The notes under the pieces are model-generated. The model made no database searches. It saw only the letters and a list, made by a program, of their open reading frames with translations, and had not been told where the DNA came from. Both the position numbers and the translations under genes were made by a program. Shown in pieces: positions 16,752 to 31,985 of a stretch of 64,000 nt of DNA. Origin of the DNA: Pirellulales bacterium (lineage in GTDB: Bacteria > Planctomycetota > Planctomycetia > Pirellulales > PALSA-1355); the NCBI GenBank assembly GCA_022844125.1, contig JALHMI010000015.1, positions 62,001-126,000 of the forward strand, in the 5' to 3' direction. Every line of letters begins with the position of its first letter. Position 1 is the first letter of the stretch.

Positions 16752-16931
16752 ACGGTGGGCTTTCGGAGGCGGGACGCGGGCGAGCGTATTTCGGGGGAAA
16801 AAGCAGGGTAGTCAGGTTCTTGCGTGTAAATTTCCCAAACTGACCATCATACACTAAACTGAAGGCTCCGCGCGCGGCAAGTGATGACCCTCCAGGGCCG
16901 CGGCTTAACCCTCCGAGCGGAGCTTTTCTGC

Positions 16932-18749
16932 GTGAGATTCCAGGTTCACTTCGTTTTTTTGCTCCTCTCGTTGGTCTGCTGCCGCGCACGTGCCGTAGCG
17001 CAATCTCCGACCGACGTCGCCGAACATCTGCCGGCAACTGCAAGCCTGGTTTTGTACAGCGGCGACATGGGCGCCACTTGCGCTGAGTTCCAGGAGACGC
17101 GGCTGGGTGGCGTACTTACCGGCGACGCCTTTCGCCCGTTGATCGACCGCTTGCGGAAGGATCATCAGGGCGGACCGCTGAACCTGCAGCCGATCTTCGG
17201 CTTCGATTGGCGTGAGTTGCAAACCGTCCATCAAGGCGCGGCGCTGATTGTGTTTCCGCTTCAGGACGGAACTGCCGCCAGAGCCTGCTTATTCGCGGGC
17301 GAAGCATCAGAAGACCCGGCCGCGCCCCTGCCGGTCGCCACGGCCTATTTCAGCTCGCGGGGATTTGTGCGCTCTGAAGCGGGCCGCGGTGATATTCTCG
17401 TTACGACCTTCAATCCGCCGGCATCCCGCAAAAACGAGAGGTCGCGCGTGCTCTTCAGCGGCCCGGGCTTTTATGGCGTTGCTGACTCACCCGCAGCCGC
17501 TGATCTGCTGCTGGCCGTGAAGCCTCCCGATTCGCTGTCCGCGAGCGACCTCTGGCAACAGGTGACCAGGCAAACAGCGCCGCCCGCGCGACTCGGCGAC
17601 CTGAAGTTACTGCTGCGTCCGTTTGAGTTTTGGGAACAGTCGCGCCGCTCGAATCCGCCCGCGGAGAATCCGGAAGGAACCTATCCCGACGTACCGGACT
17701 CGTTCGCCTCGTCGAAGCAGGTGGGCTTTGATGGCATCCAGGCGGTGGTCGGTCACGTGGCTTTCCCCGCGTCTGCCGGCCGCGATTGGGAAATTTCGGC
17801 TCGCCTGGTCGTTAGCCAGCCTTATGAGAAAGCGATGCGACTCTTCGAGCTTCGGTCGGGAACTGTGCCCGAGATTCCCGAACTCATCGGGTCAGAGGTA
17901 ACCAGCGCTAGCTTCTGGCGATGGGATTTCCCAGTCGCCATGCAAGGGTTCGGCTCGATGTTCGACGAAGCGAACGAGCCAGGTCCGGACGGTGTGGGAC
18001 TTTTCGAGGACATGCTGGACGGCCTACGCGATGATCCCGAAGGCGTACGCGTCGACCTGCGGCGCGAAGTATTCGCCAACCTTGGTCCCGGGATCTGGAG
18101 CGTCACGGATAGGGCCGGTCCCAAGACCAAGGAGCAGCCCCACGGCGATCGTGCTCTTTACCGGACCACGGTTCGCGAGCAGGCGAAAGTCGGCGATGCA
18201 CTCAAGCGCTTCTATGCCGGCGACGATCGCGTCGCATACCAGCGATCGGGCGAGTTTGACTTGTGGACCGTGCCCGATGGTGCGTCGCTATTCGTCGAGG
18301 GTGAGAGCGAATCGGTAATCAGCGTGCGAGCGCTGGCGCTGGGTGAGGGAACGTTGCTCTTCAGCACCGATCCTGATCAATTGCGCGAAGCTCTGAATGG
18401 CACGGCAGGCAAGCCTCTCAAGGACGATCCGGCATGGCGGGGTCTGTGGGAGAGTTTTGGCGAAGGACAGGCCGGCCTGTGGGGTCTGGCGAGGCTGGAC
18501 GAAACAATGGCCCCCGAGTATGCCGCGGCGACACAAGCTGAGCTGGCAGAAGATGCGGGTGCCATGGCTGCGATGTGGCGAGTATTGCTGTTCGGAGCGC
18601 TTAACAAGCAGACCAAACCACCGGTCGATGTAGCGCCCGCATTCGACAAATTGCAGCCAGGTCTTTCGCGCACCGGCACACGAATCGTCCCGGTTGACGG
18701 CGGACTCGAAGTAACCATCACAGGACAGCGACCGGAGAATGCGCCTTGA
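16932..18749 (+). CDS. Secreted protein of unknown function
   Basis: About 605 residues from GTG 16932. I prefer this start to the GTG/ATG at 16881/16884 because GGAG lies nine bases upstream and it opens directly into a signal peptide: basic start, hydrophobic core FVFLLLSLVCC, cleavage near AVAQS. The mature protein has no membrane span and no motif I recognise. It is mixed alpha/beta in composition with many acidic residues. It is divergently oriented from the ABC exporter (180 bases apart) and coupled by overlapping stop/start to the next secreted protein, so the two probably act together in the periplasm or at the surface. Function unknown. Confidence 0.8.
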   Translation: MRFQVHFVFLLLSLVCCRARAVAQSPTDVAEHLPATASLVLYSGDMGATCAEFQETRLGGVLTGDAFRPLIDRLRKDHQGGPLNLQPIFGFDWRELQTVHQGAALIVFPLQDGTAARACLFAGEASEDPAAPLPVATAYFSSRGFVRSEAGRGDILVTTFNPPASRKNERSRVLFSGPGFYGVADSPAAADLLLAVKPPDSLSASDLWQQVTRQTAPPARLGDLKLLLRPFEFWEQSRRSNPPAENPEGTYPDVPDSFASSKQVGFDGIQAVVGHVAFPASAGRDWEISARLVVSQPYEKAMRLFELRSGTVPEIPELIGSEVTSASFWRWDFPVAMQGFGSMFDEANEPGPDGVGLFEDMLDGLRDDPEGVRVDLRREVFANLGPGIWSVTDRAGPKTKEQPHGDRALYRTTVREQAKVGDALKRFYAGDDRVAYQRSGEFDLWTVPDGASLFVEGESESVISVRALALGEGTLLFSTDPDQLREALNGTAGKPLKDDPAWRGLWESFGEGQAGLWGLARLDETMAPEYAAATQAELAEDAGAMAAMWRVLLFGALNKQTKPPVDVAPAFDKLQPGLSRTGTRIVPVDGGLEVTITGQRPENAP

Positions 18750-20869
18750 GAACCAGACGTTCGCTGCCCCGTATCGTGCCATTTGTGGCGGTTGCGATTA
18801 CCTGCCTGCTTACAAGCACGGCCCGCGCGCAACTCGACACGCCGGCTGCCAGCGAAGCACGCTCAGCGCTCCGCGCCGTGCAGCAGGCGTACCAGCACTA
18901 CGACACTTGGAACGTGTGGGCCGCGGAGCTCAACCTCCCGGACGTGCAGTACGAACTGTGGGCCGGAGAGCGGGGACGGGCCGAAACGCTGGAAGCGGCC
19001 GTGGCCCAGCTTCGCGCGGGCCGCATTCCGCAGTTTGCGGATGCACCGTTCGTTCGCCTGGCGAAAGCACTCGAAGCTCGGGCGGTTGAACTGCAGCCAC
19101 TGCCGTCCACCGAGTGGCTGAGCAGTTGTGAGTCAGCAGGGGCCGCCTTTGTGCCGGTTACGGCGGACCTGGTCGAATCCGCCCGTGCCACGAGCCGCGA
19201 CCGGCTCGCTGCATTCGCAAGACATTATCCGCCCATCCGTGACCCCAAAAACGCCTGGCATCAGTTTCTCTATTGGGACGAAGTCGAGTATCTGACTGCG
19301 CGGATGCCGGGGCCGACCCCCGCGCCGGCCGAGTTGGATCGCATCGAGATGCGCTGGTCGAACGTACCGACAGTCTGGCACGACGACTTACTCTTCGAGG
19401 CGTCGCTTGCGGTGCGACATTTTATTCGTCTCCTCCGGGCGGAGATGATTGGTGAAACCGCGCCGCAACGAACAGCCGCCTGGAGCGAACTGGCCCAGTT
19501 ATTGACGGCCAGGTCGATGGACCCAAACCTGGGAGCGCCGATTGCCGCGGCGGTCCGGCGGCGCGAAAGCCTGGGACAGGCCTCTCCGCTCACCGCCACG
19601 ATCCGTCGCGAGCTCTCGCGGCCGAACCTGCTGCTGCAAATTGACGCCAGGTGGTTGTCAAATGAAACTCGGCAGCCGGTGGACGACAGCTATGACGTGA
19701 ACGGCGTTTTCGCCGGCACACGCAGTGTCGGACGCGGTCGGATGACGGGTGAAATGACGACCAGGGTGTTACCCTCATCGGCAGTGGGGCGTTTGGAACT
19801 GCTGTTCCGAGGAACCTCGAACGCGCGAGCCAGCGGGTCGCAAGACCGCGTGAGCGTAGTCAGCCGCGCGACGACCCAGGTGGCCGCCACCAAACCCTTC
19901 CGGCTGGACGAACTCGGTTTGACGCCCGAGCGGGCGCTTGCCGGAGCGACCACGTCAATCGTCTACGAAAGCATCGACTCGCCGGGCCTGCCCCGCCGGC
20001 GCAGCCAGGCCGTGAGCGAGACGCATGCGCGGCGGCCCCAAGCCGAGCGCGAGAGCGCGGCATACGCGCGCCGATCGATTCTCGAGCAGATTAACGAGCA
20101 AGCTGCAACCATGGCGACCGATTTTAATCGGGCTTATCACCGCGATGTGCGCGACCCACGCATCACGGCCGGACGCCCCGCCCCGCGGATTCGCATCCTC
20201 GCCGACGAGCGGCTCGTGGCCTGGGAGGCGACTCTGGAAGGGCCGCAATCGTTCGCCGCTTCCAGCCAGCCGGAAGCCTACGACTGCGGCAACCCGGTCG
20301 TCATGTCCGTCGCGCCGTCGGTGCTCGAGGAGCAAGCGACCATCAGCCTTGGCGGGCGTGAGTTAACAGGTGCCGAACTGGAGCAGCAGCTGTGGCAGAA
20401 GCCCGCGGAAGCACAGCCGGTGTCGCAGCGCAAGCGCGGCGACGACGAGTTTCGGGTGACGTTTGCCCCACGTCCTTGCGAAGTGCAGTTTGTCGAAGGG
20501 GCCGTGCGTGTGCGGTTGTTTATCGAGAAGTTCGACTCGGAGGACGTAAAGTATCCGGCGATGACGGTGGACGTGGCCTATCGGCCGGAGCCGCGTGACG
20601 GCCGGCTGGTCCTCACTCGCGAGGGCAAGGTAAAAGTCATGCCGCTGGCGACGGCCGAAGGCGCGCCGAAGCTGAGCGGCCGGCAGCAGACGCTGCGCCT
20701 GGCGGTCGAGCGAAAGCTGTCGAAGGTACTGTCCAGCGAGATCGCCGCAGAGCCCGTGAAGCTGCCCATCGCAAAAGATGACGAGCGTCCGCTGCGGGTG
20801 GAAAACGTGCGATTGGCGGGGGAATGGCTGCAGATGGGGCTGGGAACCGAGCCGACACCGGCCTCTTGA
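18746..20869 (+). CDS. Secreted protein of unknown function, coupled to the gene before
   Basis: 707 residues starting at TTG 18746, which overlaps the previous stop in TTGA; GGAG at 18733 fits as ribosome site. The N-terminus is a clear signal peptide (RTRRSLPRIVPF, hydrophobic core, cleavage near ARAQL). The first ~250 residues are helical and rich in Trp/Tyr/Leu; the rest is predicted strand-rich, with Arg-rich stretches around residues 420-440. I recognise no family. The tight overlap with the upstream gene suggests a two-protein unit. Genes of this kind are common in planctomycetes but remain uncharacterised as far as I know. Confidence 0.8.
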   Translation: MRTRRSLPRIVPFVAVAITCLLTSTARAQLDTPAASEARSALRAVQQAYQHYDTWNVWAAELNLPDVQYELWAGERGRAETLEAAVAQLRAGRIPQFADAPFVRLAKALEARAVELQPLPSTEWLSSCESAGAAFVPVTADLVESARATSRDRLAAFARHYPPIRDPKNAWHQFLYWDEVEYLTARMPGPTPAPAELDRIEMRWSNVPTVWHDDLLFEASLAVRHFIRLLRAEMIGETAPQRTAAWSELAQLLTARSMDPNLGAPIAAAVRRRESLGQASPLTATIRRELSRPNLLLQIDARWLSNETRQPVDDSYDVNGVFAGTRSVGRGRMTGEMTTRVLPSSAVGRLELLFRGTSNARASGSQDRVSVVSRATTQVAATKPFRLDELGLTPERALAGATTSIVYESIDSPGLPRRRSQAVSETHARRPQAERESAAYARRSILEQINEQAATMATDFNRAYHRDVRDPRITAGRPAPRIRILADERLVAWEATLEGPQSFAASSQPEAYDCGNPVVMSVAPSVLEEQATISLGGRELTGAELEQQLWQKPAEAQPVSQRKRGDDEFRVTFAPRPCEVQFVEGAVRVRLFIEKFDSEDVKYPAMTVDVAYRPEPRDGRLVLTREGKVKVMPLATAEGAPKLSGRQQTLRLAVERKLSKVLSSEIAAEPVKLPIAKDDERPLRVENVRLAGEWLQMGLGTEPTPAS

Positions 20870-20908
20870 GCGATTCGGGCGATTGCGGTTCGCGCGGCCG
20901 CTGGAAAG

Positions 20909-20938
20909 TTGACCGAACAGGCGGTAGCTAGCTATGAT
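20909..20938 (+). promoter_or_regulatory. Sigma-70-like promoter of the tetR-RND operon
   Basis: TTGACC (20909-20914) and TATGAT (20933-20938), each five of six to consensus, are 18 bases apart. The start site falls near 20945, at the edge of the palindrome at 20946-20961. Confidence 0.7.
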
Positions 20939-20945
20939 GGGAGGT

Positions 20946-20961
20946 GACTGACTGGTCAGTC
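20946..20961. promoter_or_regulatory. Putative TetR operator (perfect 7-bp inverted repeat)
   Basis: GACTGAC-TG-GTCAGTC is a perfect inverted repeat with two central bases. It abuts the predicted transcription start and ends 20 bases before the TetR start codon, where a bound repressor would block transcription. It closely resembles known operators of TetR repressors of efflux pumps. Confidence 0.75.
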
Positions 20962-20981
20962 CGCTGCTCCTCCGCCGCCAG

Positions 20982-21662
20982 TTGACGCCCTCCCGGTTCG
21001 AACTCTCAGGTGCTGCTTTGGCCCAGCCTTCTCCCAGCCGTGATGCCGCTCTCGACGAACGTTTCGCCCTGCGACGCGAGGAAATTCTCGTCCAGGCAGC
21101 CCAACTCTTCGCCGAACACGGCTACTCCGACTGCGACACGCAGCTCCTGGCCGAAACCATCGGCGTCGGCAAGGGAACCGTCTATCGCTACTTTCCCAGC
21201 AAGCGAGCACTGTTTCTGGCCGCGGCCGATCGCGTCATGCGGATGCTGCGCGCCCACGTCGATGGCCAAATCGAGGGCCTCGAGGATCCTTTCGTACGAA
21301 TTCGGACGGGCATCCGCTGCTTCCTCGAGTTCTTCGCCGAGCATCCCGAGTTCGTGGAACTCTTGATGCAAGAACGAGCGCAATTCAAAGACCGGACGCG
21401 GCCTACGTTCATGGAGCATCGGCAGTCGAACGTCGCCCGCTGGCGCGAGATCTACCGCGGTTTGATTGGCGAATCGCGCGTTCGCGACATTCCGGTTGAG
21501 CGGATCACGGACGTGGTGGGCAACCTGCTGTATGGCACGATCTTTACCAACTATTTCAGCGGCGAGCCAAAGTCGCCCGAGGCGCAGGCTCAAGACATTA
21601 TCGACATCGTGTTCAACGGCATCCTCACCGACAGCGAGCGAAATCAGCAGCAGGGCACATGA
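20982..21662 (+). CDS. TetR/AcrR-family repressor of the RND efflux operon
   Basis: 226 residues from TTG 20982. An N-terminal helix-turn-helix is clear at about residues 33-80, with AAQLFAEHGYSD, then the recognition helix region GVGKGTVYRYFPSK, followed by an all-helical ligand/dimer domain. The first ~25 residues are a variable tail; a start further in is possible. It stands directly before the adaptor and two RND pumps on the same strand (82 bases to the adaptor), and a palindromic operator lies at its promoter, so it probably represses itself and the pump genes until a toxic or lipidic ligand binds. Confidence 0.9.
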   Translation: MTPSRFELSGAALAQPSPSRDAALDERFALRREEILVQAAQLFAEHGYSDCDTQLLAETIGVGKGTVYRYFPSKRALFLAAADRVMRMLRAHVDGQIEGLEDPFVRIRTGIRCFLEFFAEHPEFVELLMQERAQFKDRTRPTFMEHRQSNVARWREIYRGLIGESRVRDIPVERITDVVGNLLYGTIFTNYFSGEPKSPEAQAQDIIDIVFNGILTDSERNQQQGT

Positions 21663-21743
21663 AGAGGCCTAAGTGGGCGAACGCGAAACGCGTGAACCCA
21701 CCGCCGGAAAAGGGACTCTAGGAATCCCAGGGAGCAACGTAAA

Positions 21744-23030
21744 GTGGATCGCTGGACGAATTTCATACTGATCGGTCTCGTCCTGTTGTTGGGACTGTCC
21801 GCTATCGGCTGCAATCAAAGCGCTGAGAAGAGCGGGGCCGTCAGGGCGACTCCAGCCAGTCAGGGCAAGGCCGCAGTACCAGGCGGACCTGGCGCTGCAC
21901 CGCCACCGGCGGAAGTTGTCGTGGCCCTGCCGCGGACCGGGCAGATCACGGATCACGAGGACTTCACCGGCCGAACGGTGGCCAACAAAACCATCGAGAT
22001 TCGCGCACGGGTCACCGGGTACATCGACAAGATCAACTTCATCGAGAATGAAGGGCGCGACGTCGAAAGCGGTTCGGTCCTGTTTGAGATCGATCCGCGG
22101 CTTTACGAGGCCGAAGTCGCCCGCGCGCAGGCTAATCTGCTGCAAACTCAGACCCGACTAAAACGCATCGAACTCGACTACGACCGGGCGCTCAAGACAG
22201 TCGCCAGCCGCACGATCACGCAGGAACAATTCGACCAGGTGGCCGGCGATCGGGCGGAGGCCAAGGCCGAGGTCGAGATCATGAAGGCCAATCTCGATCT
22301 GGCCAGGCTGAACCTTTCATACACCAAGGTAACTGCACCGATCAGCGGCCGGGTGAGTCGCCGTCAGCTAGATCAGGGGAACCTTGTCCGCGCCGATGAA
22401 ACGGTGCTCGCCACGATCGTTTCAATGGACCCGATGTATGCCTACTTCGAACTCGACGAGCGGACGCTGCTCAAGCTGCGGCGCGCCGTGGAAGACGAAG
22501 GTATGATTAGCACGCGCAACGAAAACTCGGTGCCGATTCAGATGGCCCTCGCTGATGAAGAGGGGTATCCGCACGAAGGCGTTGTCAACTACTTCGACAA
22601 CCAACTCGACGCCGGCACCGGCACGTTACAGGCGCGAGCCGTGTTCGACAATCGCGACCGGATGCTTGCCCCCGGCATGTTTGTACGCGTGCGATTGCCG
22701 ATCGGCCGTCCCTATCAGGCGCTGCTCATTCCCGAGCAGGCTCTGGGAACCGATCAAGGGCAAAAGTTTGTCTACGTCGTGGATGATCAGAATCGGGCCC
22801 AGTATCGCCGTCTGGAAGTCGGCAAACTCGAACGGGGCGAGCGCGTGGTCCTGGGAGGCATCACAGCTTCGGATCGCGTGATCGTCAGCGGCCTGCAGCG
22901 GGTACGGCCGGGCGAGATTGTCGCCCCGCGCGCCGACGAGAAACCTACCGCCACGGCCGGAGCCGAGTCTGGCGCAACTCCAGAGTCTGCGGCGGGCGCG
23001 CCCACCACCAAGACCGCCAGTCACCAGTAA
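21744..23030 (+). CDS. RND efflux periplasmic adaptor (membrane fusion protein), lipoprotein
   Basis: 428 residues from GTG 21744, with GGGAG nine bases upstream. A signal segment ends in the lipobox LSAIGC, so it is probably lipid-anchored. The following domains are classical for AcrA/HlyD adaptors: a barrel-sandwich/lipoyl half (IRARVTGYIDKI), a helical hairpin about residues 125-185, the second lipoyl half (TKVTAPISGRVSRR), then beta-barrel and membrane-proximal domains. The C-terminal ~35 residues are Ala/Thr/Pro-rich and probably unstructured. It links the RND pumps downstream to an outer-membrane channel, but no TolC-type gene is in the window. Confidence 0.93.
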   Translation: MDRWTNFILIGLVLLLGLSAIGCNQSAEKSGAVRATPASQGKAAVPGGPGAAPPPAEVVVALPRTGQITDHEDFTGRTVANKTIEIRARVTGYIDKINFIENEGRDVESGSVLFEIDPRLYEAEVARAQANLLQTQTRLKRIELDYDRALKTVASRTITQEQFDQVAGDRAEAKAEVEIMKANLDLARLNLSYTKVTAPISGRVSRRQLDQGNLVRADETVLATIVSMDPMYAYFELDERTLLKLRRAVEDEGMISTRNENSVPIQMALADEEGYPHEGVVNYFDNQLDAGTGTLQARAVFDNRDRMLAPGMFVRVRLPIGRPYQALLIPEQALGTDQGQKFVYVVDDQNRAQYRRLEVGKLERGERVVLGGITASDRVIVSGLQRVRPGEIVAPRADEKPTATAGAESGATPESAAGAPTTKTASHQ

Positions 23031-23079
23031 CATCATGCCAGCCGCTGCGGAGACCCCGCGGTGATGAGGGATTCCCGCC

Positions 23080-26000
23080 GTGTTTTCGCGATTCTTCATC
23101 GATCGACCGATCTTCGCTTCGGTGCTGTCGATTGCGATCACACTGGCCGGGGCCATCGCCGTGCTGGGATTGCCGCTGGCCCAGTTCCCGTCGATCTCGC
23201 CGCCCAACGTAAGCGTGAGCTGCAACTATCCCGGTGCCAGCGCAGAGGACGTCGCCGGAAGTGTGGCCGCTCCGATCGAGCAACAGGTCAATGGCGTCGA
23301 AGGCATGCTCTATATGTCTTCCAGTTGCACGAACGACGGCGGCTACAGCCTCTCCGTCACCTTCCAGCACGGCGTCGACCTGGACATGGCCCAGGTGCTG
23401 GTGCAAAACCGTGTCAGCCTGGCGCTCCCCTCGCTGCCGGACGTCATCAAGCAGACTGGCGTGCGAGTGAGCAAGCGCACGCCTGACGTGTTGATGGGGC
23501 TTTCGATCATCTCGCCTAATAAGCAGTACGATCAGCTCTATCTGAGCAACTTCGCGCTGATGCAAATCCGCGATGAGTTGTTGCGCGTGCCGGGCGTGAG
23601 CGAGATCAGCATCATGGGGCAGCGCGACTACAGCATGCGGATCTGGATCGATCCCGAGCAGCTTGCCGCGCGCCAAATGACCGCCGGAGACGTCGTGCGC
23701 GCCGTGCGGGAACAGAACTCTCAAGTCGCTACCGGGATGATCGGAGCGCCCCCCGTTCGCGACGATCAACCAACCGAAATTACCCTCAGCACGCTGGGCC
23801 GGCTGGAGAACATTGACCAGTTCAACGAGATTGTCGTCAAACGCACGCCCGATGGCCGGCTCGTACGTCTGAAGGACGTTGGCCGGGTGGAATTGGGCGC
23901 CCGAAACGAAGACTTCGACGTCATGTTCGATGGTCAGCCGACGGTGCTCTTGATCGTCTTTCAGTCGCCCGATGCGAACGCTTTGGAAACGCACGACCTG
24001 GTGCTGGACAAGATGGAGGAGCTGCAGCGCAGCTTTCCGGCCGGCGTGGGCTGGGCGATTGGCTTCGATACCACGCCTTACACCCGCGAAAGCATCAACG
24101 AGGTGTTCAAGGCCCTGCGCGATGCGGTGGTGCTCGTCGCGATCGTGGTGCTCGTGTTCCTGCAGAACTGGCGGAGCGCGATCATTCCGCTGTTGGCGGT
24201 GCCCGTGGCCATTGTGGGCACCTTCGCCGCGATGGCGTTGTTTGGTTTCAGCTTGAACAATCTGACGTTGTTTGGACTGGTGCTGGCGATTGGCATCGTG
24301 GTGGATGACGCGATCGTGGTCGTCGAAGCGGTCGAACATCACATCGAGGAAGGGATGCTGCCCCGTGCCGCCACCTTCCTGGCAATGGAGCAAGTGTCTG
24401 GCCCGGTGATCGCGGTCGCGGCCGTCCTCAGTGCGGTGTTCGTGCCGTGCGCTTTCATCAGCGGCATCACAGGGCAGTTCTTCCGGCAGTTCGCGCTGAC
24501 GATCTCGGTTTCGACGATCATCTCGGCGTTCAATTCATTAACCCTGAGTCCCGCATTGACAGCGCTCTTGCTGAAGCCCAAGGCCGAGCAGGCGCGGTCG
24601 GGCGCGCTGCCGTGGTTCGCATTTGCGCTTGCCGGTGGTTGGCTGGGCTGGGCAAGAGTGGCTGACGATCTGACCGGGTCGCAGTTGGCGGGCTGGTTCT
24701 CGCCGGAGTCGCTGCCGTGGGTGGCGGCAGCCTTGGGCGCGCTCGCCGGGCTGCTCGTCGCCTGGCCAGTTAACAAGGTTCTCGGCGCCGCATTCTGGCT
24801 GTTCAATCGCGCATTCGATGGCGCATCGGTCGTCTATACCTGGCTGGTGGGCAAGCTGCTGCATGTGAGCCTGCTCGTGCTTGTTGTCTATGCTGGGCTC
24901 GTGTTCATAACCTATGAACAGTTCGTCGATACGCCCAAGGGGTTCATCCCCGGCCAGGACATGGGCTACCTTCTGGTCAGCGTGCAGCTACCGGACTCGG
25001 CCTCCGAAGAACGCACTTCGGCCGTACTGCGAAAGCTGGAAGATCTGATTCTCAGCACGCCCGGCGTCCGGCACGTTACCGGGATCAGTGGTCAGTCGTT
25101 CTTCCTGAATGCCGCCGGCTCGAATTTTGGCACGATGTTCGTCGGTCTGGACGAATACCACAAGCGGCGTGATCCCAGCTTGTCGAGCACGGCGATCGTC
25201 GGCAAGTTGATGCAAGCATTCCAGAAAGTGCCCGAGGCGTTTGTGATGGCCGTGCCGCCGCCCCCGATGCGCGGCGTAGGCCGGGCGGGTGGCTTCATGA
25301 TGATGGTCCAGGATCGAGGCGACCTGGGTTCGCCGGCGCTGCAGGCCGAGACCGAAAACCTGATGCGCCGCGTGACGGAGCATCCGGCAATGGCGAGCGC
25401 CATGTCTCCGTTTCGGGCGAATGTGCCCATGCTGGAAGTTGAGCCTGATGTGCGTGAGTGCATGGAGAAGGGCGTCTCACTGGCGGACTTCGCCGAGACG
25501 CTCCGGATCTATCAGGGCTCTCTGTACGTGAACGACATCAATATGTTCGGCCGTACCTGGCAGGTGTTGGTACAGGCTGATTTTCCATTTCGAGATCAGC
25601 TTGAAGACATCCCCAAGCTCAAAGTGCGTAACAACGAAGGCCAGATGGTTCCGCTGGGTTCGATCGCACGCATCAAGCAGGTCAACGGGCCGCTCGTACT
25701 GACGCGGTACAACATGTATCCCTCGGCCTCGATCACGGGGGCCAGCAAGCCAGGCATCAGTTCGCGCGACGCGTTGGCAATCATGGAAGAGCTTGCCGAC
25801 GAAGAACTCGCGGGGGCGATGGCTTCGCAGTGGACCGAGATGGCCTATTTGGAGCTGATGGCCGGCAACACGGCGATGATCATCTTTGGTCTGGCCGTGG
25901 TGATGGTGTTTCTCGTGCTGGCGGCGCAGTACGAAAGCTGGTCGCTGCCGCTGGCCGTGATCCTGGTCGTGCCAATGTGCCTGTTGAGCGCGATCATCGG

Positions 26001-26520
26001 CGTCAACCTGGCCGGAATGGATATCAACATCTTTACGCAGATCGGCTTCGTGGTGCTGGTCGGGCTGGCCAGCAAGAATGCGATACTGATTGTGGAATTC
26101 GCCAAGCGCAAGCGTGAGGCCGGCGAATCGCGCCGGCAGGCGACCCTCGAGGCCTGCCGCCTGCGGTTGCGGCCGATCATCATGACATCGGTAGCGTTCA
26201 TTCTCGGTGCAGCGCCGCTGATGCTGGCGACTGGCGCCGGCGCGGAGATGCGCCAGACGCTGGGAACCGCCGTGTTCAGTGGCATGCTGGGCGTCACGCT
26301 GTTCGGCGTGTTCCTGACACCAATCTTTTTCTTCACGATCGACTGGCTCGGCGGCACACGGCTGTTCGCCTCGCAAACCATGCAGTGGTTCGGCGAGCTG
26401 CCGCGGCGAGTGTTCCATCCTGTCTCGTGGCAGAAGCTGCGTGGCCGCTTCACGCGCCGCAAGCCGCCCGTGCGCGGACCCCATCAGACGACCGAGTCCG
26501 AACCAGTCTTGCACGAATAG
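23080..26520 (+). CDS. RND multidrug efflux transporter 1 (HAE1/AcrB type)
   Basis: 1146 residues, about 100 more than AcrB, starting at GTG 23080 with GAGGG upstream. The N-terminal FIDRPIFASVLS, the TM4 proton-relay Asp pair in VVDDAIVVVE near residue 410, and the relay Lys in GLASKNAILIVEFAK are present, so it should be proton-driven. Between the TM6 block and the periplasmic loop after TM7 there is an insertion at about residues 505-570 with two extra hydrophobic stretches (WFAFALAGGWLGW and VAAALGALAGLLVAW). It is closely related at DNA level to the next gene: the region around 25913-25980 is nearly identical to 29370-29440. This suggests a tandem duplication. Confidence 0.94.
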   Translation: MFSRFFIDRPIFASVLSIAITLAGAIAVLGLPLAQFPSISPPNVSVSCNYPGASAEDVAGSVAAPIEQQVNGVEGMLYMSSSCTNDGGYSLSVTFQHGVDLDMAQVLVQNRVSLALPSLPDVIKQTGVRVSKRTPDVLMGLSIISPNKQYDQLYLSNFALMQIRDELLRVPGVSEISIMGQRDYSMRIWIDPEQLAARQMTAGDVVRAVREQNSQVATGMIGAPPVRDDQPTEITLSTLGRLENIDQFNEIVVKRTPDGRLVRLKDVGRVELGARNEDFDVMFDGQPTVLLIVFQSPDANALETHDLVLDKMEELQRSFPAGVGWAIGFDTTPYTRESINEVFKALRDAVVLVAIVVLVFLQNWRSAIIPLLAVPVAIVGTFAAMALFGFSLNNLTLFGLVLAIGIVVDDAIVVVEAVEHHIEEGMLPRAATFLAMEQVSGPVIAVAAVLSAVFVPCAFISGITGQFFRQFALTISVSTIISAFNSLTLSPALTALLLKPKAEQARSGALPWFAFALAGGWLGWARVADDLTGSQLAGWFSPESLPWVAAALGALAGLLVAWPVNKVLGAAFWLFNRAFDGASVVYTWLVGKLLHVSLLVLVVYAGLVFITYEQFVDTPKGFIPGQDMGYLLVSVQLPDSASEERTSAVLRKLEDLILSTPGVRHVTGISGQSFFLNAAGSNFGTMFVGLDEYHKRRDPSLSSTAIVGKLMQAFQKVPEAFVMAVPPPPMRGVGRAGGFMMMVQDRGDLGSPALQAETENLMRRVTEHPAMASAMSPFRANVPMLEVEPDVRECMEKGVSLADFAETLRIYQGSLYVNDINMFGRTWQVLVQADFPFRDQLEDIPKLKVRNNEGQMVPLGSIARIKQVNGPLVLTRYNMYPSASITGASKPGISSRDALAIMEELADEELAGAMASQWTEMAYLELMAGNTAMIIFGLAVVMVFLVLAAQYESWSLPLAVILVVPMCLLSAIIGVNLAGMDINIFTQIGFVVLVGLASKNAILIVEFAKRKREAGESRRQATLEACRLRLRPIIMTSVAFILGAAPLMLATGAGAEMRQTLGTAVFSGMLGVTLFGVFLTPIFFFTIDWLGGTRLFASQTMQWFGELPRRVFHPVSWQKLRGRFTRRKPPVRGPHQTTESEPVLHE

Positions 26521-26540
26521 CCACTTTGTCCGAGGCCTGA

Positions 26541-29500
26541 GTGTTCTCCAAGTTTTTTATCGACCGACCAATCTTCGCCGCAGTGTTGTCGATCATCGTC
26601 ACACTGGCCGGGGGCATTGCGCTGTTCACGCTGCCGATCGCTCAGTATCCGCAGATCGCACCGCCGACTGTCGAAGTCTCGGCGATTTACCCCGGGGCGA
26701 ATGCCAAGGTTGTGGCCGACACAGTGGCGGCTCCGATCGAGCAGCAGGTCAATGGCGTTGAAGAGATGCTGTACATGTCGTCGCAGTGCGGCAACGACGG
26801 CAGCTACACGCTCACAGTCACGTTCGCCAACGGCGTCGATCTGAACATGGCCCAGGTGCTGGTGCAGAACCGCGTGGCGCTCGCGCAGCCGGTGCTGCCA
26901 GAACTCGTGCAGCGGCGCGGCGTAACGGTGAAGAAGAAGTCGCCCAGCGTGCTGATGATCGTGAACCTGTATTCGCCCTCTGGCGAGCGCGACAATCTTT
27001 ACTTAAGCAACTACGCCACGATCCAGCTCAAGGACGAACTCTCGCGCCTCGACGGGGTGGGCGACATCACTTATCTCGGCCAGCGCGACTACAGCATGCG
27101 GCTGTGGCTCGATCCGGAGCGGATGGCCTCGCGCAGTCTGTCCACCCAGGACGTCGTCACCGCGATTCAGCAGCAGAACACGCAAGTCGCGGCCGGACAG
27201 ATCGGTCAACCGCCCGTGGACAATGGCCAGGTGTTCCAGTTCACGATCAGCACGATGGGACGGCTGGCCGATCCCGAGCAATTTGCCGAGATGATTCTGA
27301 AGCGCGATCCGGCCGGCGGGCTGGTGCGGCTGAAGGACGTGGCGCGAATCGAACTTGGCGCGCAGGGGTATGACCAGACTTGCCGGCTCGATGGGCAGCC
27401 CTCCGTGGCGCTGTCGATCTATCAGCTTCCCGGCTCGAACGCCCTCGATGTGGCCGAGGCGGTGAAGGCCAAGATGGAAGACCTCAAGTCGCGATTTCCC
27501 GATGGTGTCGACTATTCGATCGTTTACGACACGACGCCGTTCATCAACGAGTCGATCGCCGAAGTGTTCAAGGCCCTGCGCGACGCCGTGATCCTGGTGG
27601 CGATTGTCGTACTCGTATTCTTGCAGAATTGGCGCAGCGCTATCATTCCGCTGATCGCCGTGCCCGTCGCCATCGTGGGCACGTTCGCTGTGATGGCCTC
27701 GATGGGGTTCAGCCTTAATAACCTCACGCTCTTCGGCCTGGTGCTCGCGATCGGCATTGTGGTTGACGACGCGATCGTGGTGGTCGAAGCCGTCGAACAT
27801 CACATCGAGCTTGGGCTGTCGCCGCGCGACGCCACGATCAAGGCCATGGAACAAGTGTCGGGGCCGGTGATCGCGGTCGGCCTGGTGCTGAGCGCTGTGT
27901 TCGTGCCGTGCGCTTTTATCAGCGGCATCATGGGGCAGTTCTTTCGGCAGTTCGCCTTGACGATCGCGGTCTCGATGGTCATTTCGACGTTCAACTCGCT
28001 GACGCTCAGCCCGGCGCTGACGGCGCTGCTGTTACGCCCGCGGGACACGAAGCGTGCTGCACCGCTGCCATGGCTGGCGTTTGTGGTCGCAGGCGGTTGG
28101 TTGGGCTGGGAATATCTGACACCCATGCTGCGCGACGGCGGCTGGTTCACGACCCTGTCGCCCTCGGGTCTTGCTTGGACGGCGGCCGCCATAGGCGCCC
28201 TTGCGGGTGCAGTGGTCACCTGGCCAATCAACCGCGTACTGTGGCTGGCATTCCGGGCATTCAATATTGCCTTCGACTTCACGGCCGGCATCTACACCTG
28301 GTCGGTCGGCCGTTTGCTTCGCGTGAGCCTGTTGGTGCTGATCGGCTACGGCGGGCTGTTGTATCTCACTTATGTTCGCTTCGAGGAGACGCCCAAGGGT
28401 TTCATTCCCGATCAGGACAAGGGATACCTCCTGGTCAACTTGCAACTCCCGGACTCCGCGTCCGTCGGCCGCACCGAGGTGGTCATGGCCCGGATCGAAG
28501 AGGTCGCCCTGGCCACCCCCGGAATACGTCACACCGTGGCGATCTCGGGCCAATCGATCTCGCTGGCGGCGAACGCACCGAACTTCGGAGCGATGTACGT
28601 GATGCTGGACGACTTTCACGAGCGGCACGGCGCCGAGATGTCCAGCGCAGCGATTGCCGAACGATTGCAAGCTTCGCTGCAGACCGAAATCCGCGACGGC
28701 ATCGTGAATGTTCTTGGAGCTCCGCCGCTCGATGGCCTGGGAACGACGGGCGGTTTCAAAATCATGATCGAAGATCGCGGCGCTGCAGGGCTAAACGCGC
28801 TGCAAGGCGTGGCCGATCAGCTCGTGGCCGAGGCACGCCTGCAGCCCGGCATCCGCGATCCGTTCACCAGCTTCCGAGCCGAGACGCCGTGGCTGTATCT
28901 AGACATCGACCGTACCGCCGCCAAGCGGATGGGCGTCTCGATGGACGAACTATTCAGCACGCTCCAGGTTTATCTTGGCTCGCTGTATGTGAACGACTTC
29001 AATCTGTTCGGACGTACCTGGCAGGTGAACGTGCAGGCCGACCAGAGCTTTCGCCGCCAGGTGGAAGACCTCAAGCAGCTCAAAGTTCGTAACGAGGCCG
29101 GCGATATGGTGCCTTTCGCGTCGCTGGTGGCGATTCGCGACGTCACGGGCCCGGTGCTGATCGCGCGGTACAACATGTACCCGTCGGCACCGATCATCTA
29201 TAACCCCGCGCCGGGCGTGAGTTCCGGCACCGCGATTCAGGACATGCAAGACCTGGTCGACGACACGCGGGGCTGGTCGATGCGGTACGAATGGACTGAG
29301 CTGGCGCTGTTGCAGCTTCAGACTGGCAACACGGCGATGCTCGTCCTGCTCCTTGCGGTCGTGCTGGTGTTCCTGGTGCTGGCGGCCCAGTATGAAAGTT
29401 GGTCGCTGCCGCTGGCCGTGATCCTGGTCGTGCCGATGTGCCTTTTGTGTTCGATCGTGGCCGTGCAGTGGGCTGCGATGGACGTGAACATCTTCACGCA

Positions 29501-30008
29501 GGTCGGATTCGTCGTGCTCATTGGCCTGGCATGCAAGAACGCGATTCTGGTGGTGGAGTTCGCCCGGGCGCAGCGGCTGGAAGGCAAAGGGCGATATGAG
29601 GCCACGCTCGAGGCGGTAAATCTGCGCTTGCGGCCGATCGTGATGACGTCGTTCGCGTTCATCCTGGGCGTGGTGCCTCTAGTGATCTCCGAGGGGGCCG
29701 GCGCCGAGATGCGCCGTACGCTAGGCACCGCGGTGTTCGGCGGGATGTTGGGCGTAACGCTGTTCGGAATCTTTCTCACGCCGGTGTTCTATTACGTGAT
29801 TGAGTGGATCAACGATCAATGGCGCGGACGCAAGGCGCGCACCGACACGATTCGTAGTTGGTTTGGCCGCGTGCCGCATCCTCTGGGACGCAGAACCGCG
29901 CAGCAAACGCATACGAACGGCAAGCCGCGACGCGCGCGACCGCACGCTCCCGTTGAGCTGCCTGCGATGACGCGCATCGATCCAGAAGAGAAGCCGCTCG
30001 CGCCGTAG
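26541..30008 (+). CDS. RND multidrug efflux transporter 2 (HAE1/AcrB type)
   Basis: 1155 residues starting at GTG 26541, 20 bases after the first pump, with CGAGG as ribosome site. The same landmarks are present: FIDRPIFAAVLS, VVDDAIVVVE, and CKNAILVVEFAR in the relay helix. It has the same extra hydrophobic insertion near residues 505-575. Its periplasmic porter domains differ more from pump 1 than the membrane parts do, which would allow different substrates or a hetero-trimer such as MdtBC. The C-terminal tail of ~60 residues is basic and Pro-rich. It shares the single adaptor upstream. Confidence 0.94.
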   Translation: MFSKFFIDRPIFAAVLSIIVTLAGGIALFTLPIAQYPQIAPPTVEVSAIYPGANAKVVADTVAAPIEQQVNGVEEMLYMSSQCGNDGSYTLTVTFANGVDLNMAQVLVQNRVALAQPVLPELVQRRGVTVKKKSPSVLMIVNLYSPSGERDNLYLSNYATIQLKDELSRLDGVGDITYLGQRDYSMRLWLDPERMASRSLSTQDVVTAIQQQNTQVAAGQIGQPPVDNGQVFQFTISTMGRLADPEQFAEMILKRDPAGGLVRLKDVARIELGAQGYDQTCRLDGQPSVALSIYQLPGSNALDVAEAVKAKMEDLKSRFPDGVDYSIVYDTTPFINESIAEVFKALRDAVILVAIVVLVFLQNWRSAIIPLIAVPVAIVGTFAVMASMGFSLNNLTLFGLVLAIGIVVDDAIVVVEAVEHHIELGLSPRDATIKAMEQVSGPVIAVGLVLSAVFVPCAFISGIMGQFFRQFALTIAVSMVISTFNSLTLSPALTALLLRPRDTKRAAPLPWLAFVVAGGWLGWEYLTPMLRDGGWFTTLSPSGLAWTAAAIGALAGAVVTWPINRVLWLAFRAFNIAFDFTAGIYTWSVGRLLRVSLLVLIGYGGLLYLTYVRFEETPKGFIPDQDKGYLLVNLQLPDSASVGRTEVVMARIEEVALATPGIRHTVAISGQSISLAANAPNFGAMYVMLDDFHERHGAEMSSAAIAERLQASLQTEIRDGIVNVLGAPPLDGLGTTGGFKIMIEDRGAAGLNALQGVADQLVAEARLQPGIRDPFTSFRAETPWLYLDIDRTAAKRMGVSMDELFSTLQVYLGSLYVNDFNLFGRTWQVNVQADQSFRRQVEDLKQLKVRNEAGDMVPFASLVAIRDVTGPVLIARYNMYPSAPIIYNPAPGVSSGTAIQDMQDLVDDTRGWSMRYEWTELALLQLQTGNTAMLVLLLAVVLVFLVLAAQYESWSLPLAVILVVPMCLLCSIVAVQWAAMDVNIFTQVGFVVLIGLACKNAILVVEFARAQRLEGKGRYEATLEAVNLRLRPIVMTSFAFILGVVPLVISEGAGAEMRRTLGTAVFGGMLGVTLFGIFLTPVFYYVIEWINDQWRGRKARTDTIRSWFGRVPHPLGRRTAQQTHTNGKPRRARPHAPVELPAMTRIDPEEKPLAP

Positions 30009-30074: not shown

Positions 30075-31985
30075 GTGGCTCTCATGAGCGATGCGAGCCC
30101 CCAATCGCCTGACGATTCTGCCGCGAACCGCAGTTGGTGGCCAGAATTTCTGGTCCTCGGCCAGCGCCGCGTTCGCGGCCAGATGCGGGTCCTGGGGCTC
30201 TCGATTATCGTCGGCATCGTAGCCGGCCTGGCGGCGACGGTGTTCTATGTCGCCACCGAAGCAGCTTCTCATTTCGCCCTCGACGGCCTGGCCGGCTATC
30301 GGCCTGAGCCCGCGCCCGCGGGAGAAATCAAATTCAGTTGGATGCAGCCAACGGATACCACGTTTCGCCCTTGGCTGCTGGTCCTGATTCCGACCGTGGG
30401 CGGCCTGCTGGCGGGGCTGATCATCTACACCTTTGCACCGGAAGCCGAAGGGCACGGCACCGACTCGGCGATCGCAGCCTACCATCGAAAACAGGGTTAC
30501 ATGCGGCCGATCGTGCCGATCGTCAAGATCATCGCCAGCGCGCTGACGATCGGCTCCGGTGGCTCGGGAGGGCGCGAGGGCCCGATTGCACAGATCGGCG
30601 CGGGCTTCGGCTCCTCGCTGGCCGACATGCTCAAGCTGCGTCCGGCAGAGCGGCGGATCCTGCTCGCCGCCGGCATGGGCGCAGGCATTGGCGCGATCTT
30701 TCGCGCGCCAGTCGCTGGCGCGCTGTTCGCCGCCGAGGTGCTCTATTCTTCGCCCGAGTTCGAGCCCGAGGTGATCCTGCCGGCGGCCCTCTCGAGTGTC
30801 ATTGCTTACAGCACGTTCGGCGCGATCTTTGGCTGGACGCCCCTGTTTGACACGCCAGAACTGGCCTTCGGCAGCCCGGTTCAACTGGTGGGCTATACGT
30901 TGCTCGCGCTCGCGATGGTTCCGCTGGCGATGCTCTATACGCGCACGTTTTACGGCATCACGGGACTTTTCAAACGCATGCCCGGGCCGCCGCACATTCG
31001 GCCGGCAATTGGCGCTTGCTTGACGGGACTTCTCGGCGTCGGGCTGTATTTCTCGTTCGGCGAGCAAGCCGTGCTCGGCGTGCTTTCGTTTGGCTATGCC
31101 GCGGTGCAGCAAGTGCTTACGGAGCCTGAATCGATGAGCATCAGCCTGCTCGCTGCGCTCGCGCTAGGGAAGCTCCTGACTACCAGTCTCACGATCGGCA
31201 GTGGGGGCTCGGGCGGCGTTTTCGGCCCATCAATGGTGATCGGCGCATGCGCGGGCGGCGCGATTGGGCTCGCGCTGCGCGAGTATTGGCCCGCGCTCGG
31301 AGCCGATCCGGCGAGTTACGCCGTCGTTGGCATGGCAGGTTTCTTCGCGGCCGCAGCGAAGACTCCGTTTTCCACCATGATCATGGTCAGCGAGATGACG
31401 GGCGGCTATCTGCTGTTACTTCCGGCGCTGTGGGTATGCACCGTCTCGTTCATGCTTTCGGATCGCCGCTCGATCTATAGCCAGCAGGTGGAGTCGCGAA
31501 CACGTTCGCCCGCACATCAGGCCAGCTTCGTGCGACAGATCCTCGCGGGGCAGACGATCTCGAAGCTCATTTCCACCGGCGAGATGCGCGTGCTCAAGCC
31601 CCGCGATTCGCTCGCCGAAGTGTTCCATCGCTTCGACGACGCCACGATCGCCGTGATGCCTGTCGTGGACGACAACCGCCGACTGGTGGGAGTCATTGAC
31701 CTCGAGGAGGTCTACCTGGCGTCACAGGCCCCATCGCTGTTGCCGTTGGTGCTCGCCGCGGACCTGATGCACGCGGACGTTTCGCCAGTGCTGGCCAACG
31801 AGTCGCTGGAGAATGTCTATGCGACATTCGTCGAGTCGGGCTATCAGGCGCTGCCCGTGGTCGACAATCTCGAAGATCGACGCGTGCAAGGCATGATTCG
31901 CCGCGGCGAAGTGGCGAGCGCGTATCTGCGGCTGCTCTATGGTCGACCACTTTCGGCCGGTTCCGGTTCAAGTACCGACTCCTGA
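30075..31985 (+). CDS. ClC-family chloride channel/transporter with C-terminal CBS pair
   Basis: 636 residues from GTG 30075 (ATG 30084 is an alternative). The ClC motifs are visible: GHGTD at the first selectivity loop, GSGGSGGREGP with the external gate Glu near residue 173, and GSGGSGGVFGP. In the helix that holds Glu203 of the E. coli exchanger, this protein reads LFAAEVL, so the internal proton Glu aligns with Val. About residues 490-625 form two CBS domains, probably sensing nucleotides. It probably conducts anions across the inner membrane. The gene starts 66 bases after the efflux operon. Confidence 0.9.
   Translation: MALMSDASPQSPDDSAANRSWWPEFLVLGQRRVRGQMRVLGLSIIVGIVAGLAATVFYVATEAASHFALDGLAGYRPEPAPAGEIKFSWMQPTDTTFRPWLLVLIPTVGGLLAGLIIYTFAPEAEGHGTDSAIAAYHRKQGYMRPIVPIVKIIASALTIGSGGSGGREGPIAQIGAGFGSSLADMLKLRPAERRILLAAGMGAGIGAIFRAPVAGALFAAEVLYSSPEFEPEVILPAALSSVIAYSTFGAIFGWTPLFDTPELAFGSPVQLVGYTLLALAMVPLAMLYTRTFYGITGLFKRMPGPPHIRPAIGACLTGLLGVGLYFSFGEQAVLGVLSFGYAAVQQVLTEPESMSISLLAALALGKLLTTSLTIGSGGSGGVFGPSMVIGACAGGAIGLALREYWPALGADPASYAVVGMAGFFAAAAKTPFSTMIMVSEMTGGYLLLLPALWVCTVSFMLSDRRSIYSQQVESRTRSPAHQASFVRQILAGQTISKLISTGEMRVLKPRDSLAEVFHRFDDATIAVMPVVDDNRRLVGVIDLEEVYLASQAPSLLPLVLAADLMHADVSPVLANESLENVYATFVESGYQALPVVDNLEDRRVQGMIRRGEVASAYLRLLYGRPLSAGSGSSTDS

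Follow-up and report, generated by a model that had tools for sequence, protein, structure and literature searches.

Local repression of RND efflux pumps by TetR-family proteins is familiar from AcrR, which controls AcrAB, and from MtrR, SmeT and TtgR. In these systems the tetR gene lies beside the genes for the adaptor and the RND permease, a palindromic operator is found at the promoter, and release of the repressor by a pump substrate is presumed. MdtABC-type pumps are distinguished by having two different RND permeases. With regard to the form of the operator, the nearest printed examples among the literature matches listed come from Thermus thermophilus. SbtR (TTHA0167) is a TetR-family dimer that recognises a TGAC...GTCA palindrome, with a tested consensus of TGACTGGCCAGTCA, TGACCGGTCA among its natural sites, and sites reported before several genes (PMC4948773). 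The second is TTHB023/PfmR, also of the TetR family, for which a 16-bp palindrome with the consensus CTGACCGATCGGTCAG is given (PMC7022988).

The locus analysed here lies in a window of 64,000 nucleotides (the whole stretch of DNA under study) from a Pirellulales bacterium of the Planctomycetota. Like the AcrR/MtrR/SmeT/TtgR class, it has tetR beside adaptor and RND genes and a palindrome at the promoter. Unlike that class, its tetR is co-directional with the pump genes and first in the operon, and there are two RND genes and no outer-membrane gene. Moreover, scores against the AcrR and MtrR profiles fall far short of their cut-offs (NF007949, 19.7 of 271 bits; NF051852, 19.1 of 280 bits), which places the protein in neither group. 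A single adaptor gene with a pair of different RND permease genes behind it is a feature shared with MdtABC, whereas both permeases pass the cut-off of NF000282 but not those of MdtB and MdtC. As for the operator, the TGAC arms are 6 nt apart in the SbtR consensus as printed and 2 nt apart here (PMC4948773). A natural site bound by TTHB023, CTGACTGACCGGTCAT, has 13 bases (GACTGACCGGTCA) in common with the CG-centred T-type sites of the relatives described below, whereas the published consensus differs from the site here and TTHB023/PfmR is tied to fatty-acid genes rather than to a pump (PMC7022988). A search of the open-access literature (PMC) with six exact forms of the site returned no match, and a TetR operator of this form in Planctomycetota was not found among the matches listed there. 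The operator is of an ordinary type and the arrangement ordinary in kind, and the understanding of TetR regulation is unchanged. What is gained is a well-supported predicted operator for a group of Planctomycetota pump repressors; the control sites of about 100 relatives become predictable, and the operator together with its TetR makes a ready-made candidate sensor part. Our preferred reading, to which we assign a probability of about 0.88, is that the palindrome serves as the operator of the TetR encoded downstream, which would repress its own gene together with the adaptor and both permease genes from the sole promoter found (Table 1).

Table 1. Features of the predicted tetR-pump operon, in positions of the window
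Feature	Position	Strand	Evidence
Sigma-70-type promoter, TTGACC-18-TATGAT	20909..20938	+	direct sequence reading, promoter scan; TTGAC recurs in relatives
Candidate TetR operator, GACTGAC-TG-GTCAGTC	20946..20961	.	sequence; kept in relatives, controls
Likely ribosome-binding site (AGGTG) of the preferred tetR start	21008..21012	+	sequence
tetR repressor gene	21018..21662 (likely start TTG 21018; longest reading from 20982)	+	PF00440, E 8.4e-16; starts in relatives
Periplasmic adaptor (membrane fusion) gene, RND pump	21744..23030	+	TIGR01730, 256 bits, cut-off 94.9
First RND permease gene, HAE1 type	23080..26520	+	NF000282, 1289 bits, cut-off 1250
Second RND permease gene, HAE1 type	26541..30008	+	NF000282, 1351.5 bits; 58.7% identical to first
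ClC-type chloride channel/exchanger gene	30075..31985	+	PF00654; same place in family relative L062

Both the promoter and the palindrome are contained in the stretch (20870-21017) between the preceding open reading frame (18746-20869) and tetR. On direct reading, the -35 element TTGACC (20909-20914) is followed after an 18-nt spacer by the -10 element TATGAT (20933-20938), and after seven further bases by GACTGACTGGTCAGTC, whose arms (20946-20952 and 20955-20961) enclose a TG centre. The predicted transcription start, at about 20944-20946, coincides with the palindrome. The initial annotation had described this same arrangement, which the direct reading bears out, and had noticed no second copy of the palindrome in the window; indeed, the site is the single match there at up to three mismatches, with 3.18 expected by chance. 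The genome scan that it had proposed found a single exact copy of the 16-mer in 6.44 Mb, so that the notion of one site holds genome-wide. A promoter scan of 19000-27000 on both strands likewise returned this match alone, with 1.2 expected by chance, and the promoter match by itself is therefore little proof. Since the window holds seven perfect 7-2-7 inverted repeats, the palindrome alone is also weak evidence, and its significance rests on conservation in relatives; such a repeat was present in 255 of 20000 shuffles of the 20870-21017 stretch. A genome-wide excess of the palindrome was sought at up to two mismatches and gave five further places against 18 for a reversed-pattern control; on this measure, no genome-wide regulon was found.

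What makes the reading unusually solid is that the palindrome recurs at this position in relatives. Close homologs of the TetR are encoded in two of the three other genomes of the family (74% and 68%), the third having distant ones alone, and further homologs were found on a Gemmataceae contig and another Planctomycetota contig (64% and 57%). These last homologs, with the tree, point to the Planctomycetota as the group to which the window belongs. Of 392 genomes sampled from the phylum, 33 contained matches at E <=1e-25, and of 397 sampled from the class, 142 did so at E <=1e-40, the own genome included; the 29 + 60 class-level loci that we scanned were taken among the matches listed. Up to 450 bases before conserved residue 30 were searched at 123 loci including the window's own, of which 120 were examined and three (L030, L048 and L141) left out for having too little upstream DNA. 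The pattern GACKGACNNGTCMGTC (GACKGAC-NN-GTCMGTC) stood upstream of tetR exactly at 79 of the 120 loci, with one mismatch at 24, with two at 4 and with three or more at 13, so that 103 of these related tetR genes are preceded by the site with at most one mismatch. The pattern had been set on the first 34 loci (27 of 32 scannable at this threshold); among loci fetched after it was fixed, the proportion was 76 of 88 scannable (26/29 + 50/59), two of the 88 being non-independent because the same protein was counted from two collections (L021 = L093 and L022 = L105). At L046 the anchor is seemingly misplaced, and the site GACGGACGCGTCCGTC ahead of it was scored as a miss. The 17 homologs without a site at up to one mismatch include L103 (62.5%) and L104 (63.5%), both beside an adaptor gene.

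The controls came out near zero. When 32 upstream regions (at most 400 nt each) were shuffled by dinucleotide, 3200 shuffles gave no exact site and one with one mismatch, and mononucleotide shuffles of all 120 regions none and two, respectively, in 6000. None of 13 other TetR genes of the family had the site at up to two mismatches, and equal-sized stretches downstream of tetR contained it with one mismatch at one of 30 loci and in no better form. A reversed-pattern control of the upstream regions (2 exact and 24 one-mismatch sites in 120) was set aside because the palindrome half-matches its own reversal. That the palindrome arose by chance beside a chance promoter match, as the seven repeats in the window and the 1.2 promoter-like sites expected in the scanned 8 kb might have suggested, is contradicted by these figures and has a negligible probability.

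The promoter context recurs as well. Of the 103 loci that have a good site, 62 show TTGAC 28-43 bases before the operator, whereas a region of equal size placed further upstream contains it at one of 103 and shuffles have it at the right distance in 2%; it is missing from the expected place at the other 41. At 17 of 27 loci compared, the best -10-like hexamer has its end 2-8 bases ahead of the operator. Together with the TTGAC, this extends to many relatives what the initial annotation had read from a single case, an operator at the predicted transcription start. At L006, L007, L021 and L022 the palindrome (one base changed in L022) and the preceding TTGAC are shared while the surrounding DNA, judged by eye, differs. 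A predicted operator before tetR, often with preceding TTGAC and adjoining pump genes, recurs across many families of the phylum.

The central dinucleotide of the 103 sites is CG in 23, TG in 22, CA in 22, GC in 16, and otherwise in the remainder. By type, 51 are TA, 33 GC, 13 TC, 4 GA and 2 CA, mixed sites being common. A link between operator position 4 (T or G) and residues of the recognition helix was sought by eye and not found; T- and G-type TetRs mostly carry G[VI]GKGT[VIL]YRYF-like helices. Mapped on the tree, the three site classes (T, G and mixed) require 18 changes, whereas shuffling gives a mean of 43.4, which indicates that the base at position 4 drifts yet clusters by descent. 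At one locus (L065 6025-6589, genome G372), the tetR-pump operon is preceded by three operator copies, one each of TA, GC and mixed type.

The TetR_N helix-turn-helix domain (PF00440, 57.9 bits, cut-off 24, residues 35-81) assigns the protein to the TetR family, and the C-terminal domain PF17932 (TetR_C_24) scores 26.3 bits, just under its cut-off of 26.4. The best relative of solved structure by sequence is Mce3R, a distant one at 49 bits. The one point on which we depart from the initial annotation is the start of tetR, which it had placed 20 bases past the palindrome. The start is probably TTG 21018, 56 bases past it, and less likely TTG 20982, the longer form. We prefer the former on account of the AGGTG 5 nt ahead of it and its fit to the starts open to most relatives; no ribosome site is visible before TTG 20982. 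In 41 of 47 relatives listed with at least 55% identity and a site with at most one mismatch, a potential start codon, usually ATG, lies 42-63 bases before residue 30; the window's TTG 21018 is 51 bases and TTG 20982 is 87 bases before that residue. The six relatives without such a codon are L096, L099, L106, L113, L121 and L139, and L096 has a single possible start, 90 bases before residue 30.

A TetR dimer on 20946-20961 would cover the transcription start of the sole promoter found before the operon and block RNA polymerase, repressing tetR itself; through read-through, the adaptor and two RND permease genes behind tetR would be held down too, until a small molecule, presumably a pump substrate, releases the repressor. 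It is almost certain that this TetR has its operator here, at the start of the predicted tetR-adaptor-RND-RND operon, and the repressor on this start-point palindrome very probably holds the multidrug-pump operon off. We infer dimer binding, repression by blocked initiation, an inducer, and a single transcript from tetR to the second permease or the ClC gene.

Among the alternatives, an operator that governs tetR alone, with the pump genes under their own promoter or regulator, survives best and seems to us improbable. In its favour are the 81-nt gap between tetR and the adaptor gene and the locus L180 (3636-4350), where a close TetR homolog (66%) has the operator at one mismatch and no pump homolog occurs in the approximately 10 kb downstream. 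At the locus itself, however, 19000-27000 contains no second promoter-like site at the scan threshold, and 21663-21743 no 7-2-7 palindrome. Among the 103 loci, an adaptor homolog is found on the same strand beside tetR at 60 and divergent from it at 11, and within the fetched flank there is none at 32; together with L180, these 32 indicate that the regulator can be separated from the pump. The 11 divergent loci form two groups on the tree, and each has the operator between tetR and the adaptor gene, ending 139-259 bases ahead of the first adaptor codon in the match and, in several cases, at a shorter distance from the adaptor gene than from tetR; every one of the 11 adaptor frames offers a possible start past the operator. 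That the site stays at the pump when the orientation of tetR differs is an argument for a role in control of the pump as well as of tetR. The comparison of relatives establishes, at the level of sequence, the site, its pairing with this TetR group, its position behind TTGAC in many of the relatives and its association with the pump genes. The earlier interpretation as a self-repressed efflux operon is supported by the placement of the operator before tetR and between the two genes of the divergent loci, with binding and the single transcript as its inferred parts.

We regard as very unlikely that the palindrome acts in RNA, as a 5′ hairpin affecting stability or attenuation, rather than as a protein-binding site in DNA. 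The palindrome does stand where the transcript is predicted to begin and can fold into a 6-pair hairpin, but the whole 5′ leader folds no better than shuffles (z 0.87), the central dinucleotide is variable across the 103 sites, the same site lies between both genes in the 11 divergent relatives, and it is missing from the 13 other TetR genes of the family.

Under the operator reading, the genes controlled would be those of a pump of the HAE1 subfamily, to which both permeases belong by exceeding the cut-offs of NF000282 (RND_permease_1) and TIGR00915. Both retain the GIVVDDA and GLxxKNAIL stretches, which we take to have a role in proton relay. The best profile of the adaptor is MexE (NF045904), and at 338.2 bits against a cut-off of 714 the gene is not a MexE equivalog. 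From tetR to the ClC gene, the five genes follow each other on the + strand with gaps of 81, 49, 20 and 66 bases, and the ClC gene, 66 bases past the pump, is possibly the last of the operon. The pump cluster contains no outer-membrane channel gene and is thus not a tripartite pump with its own channel gene; the OEP family (PF02321) has 16 matches in the genome, one of them on the same contig (C15:217192-217737), about 123 kb past the operon. The two upstream open reading frames in 16881-20869 (622 and 707 aa) had no Pfam or NCBIfam match at E 0.001. Outside the window, about 28 kb upstream of the operon, the genome encodes a third RND permease that exceeds the same permease-family cut-off (G000 C15:51631-54939).

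The order tetR-adaptor-RND-RND is repeated in L062, L063, L064, L066, L067, L181 and L182, the second permease of L064 being cut by the contig end, and L065 has a single permease behind the adaptor within the fetched DNA. The second permease of L062 and L063 is 79-80% identical to the window's second and about 58% to its first, which implies that the permease pair is older than the divergence of the family. By analogy with MdtBC, two tandem, anciently diverged permeases behind one adaptor may form a heteromeric pump. More tentatively, and in our view less likely than not, this TetR could represent an undescribed, widespread Planctomycetota subfamily with a single layout (TTGAC, -10 and GACKGAC-NN-GTCMGTC at the start), in which position 4 can be either T or G while the recognition helix hardly changes and the main client is a heteromeric pump with two RND permeases.

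Finally, the exact sequence GACTGACYRGTCAGTC occurs at 10 places in 9 of the 392 genomes. Five adjoin close TetR homologs used in the comparison, three adjoin more distant TetR genes (L055, 24%; L059, 30%; L060, 45% over 49 residues), and at two (L053/L069 and L056/L068) no TetR homolog adjoins. The palindrome is therefore in wider use and not exclusive to this subfamily. In genome G380, a second exact palindrome (L068 3104-3119) precedes a 241-aa open reading frame of unknown role; with no homolog of this TetR adjoining, it is a possible second target.
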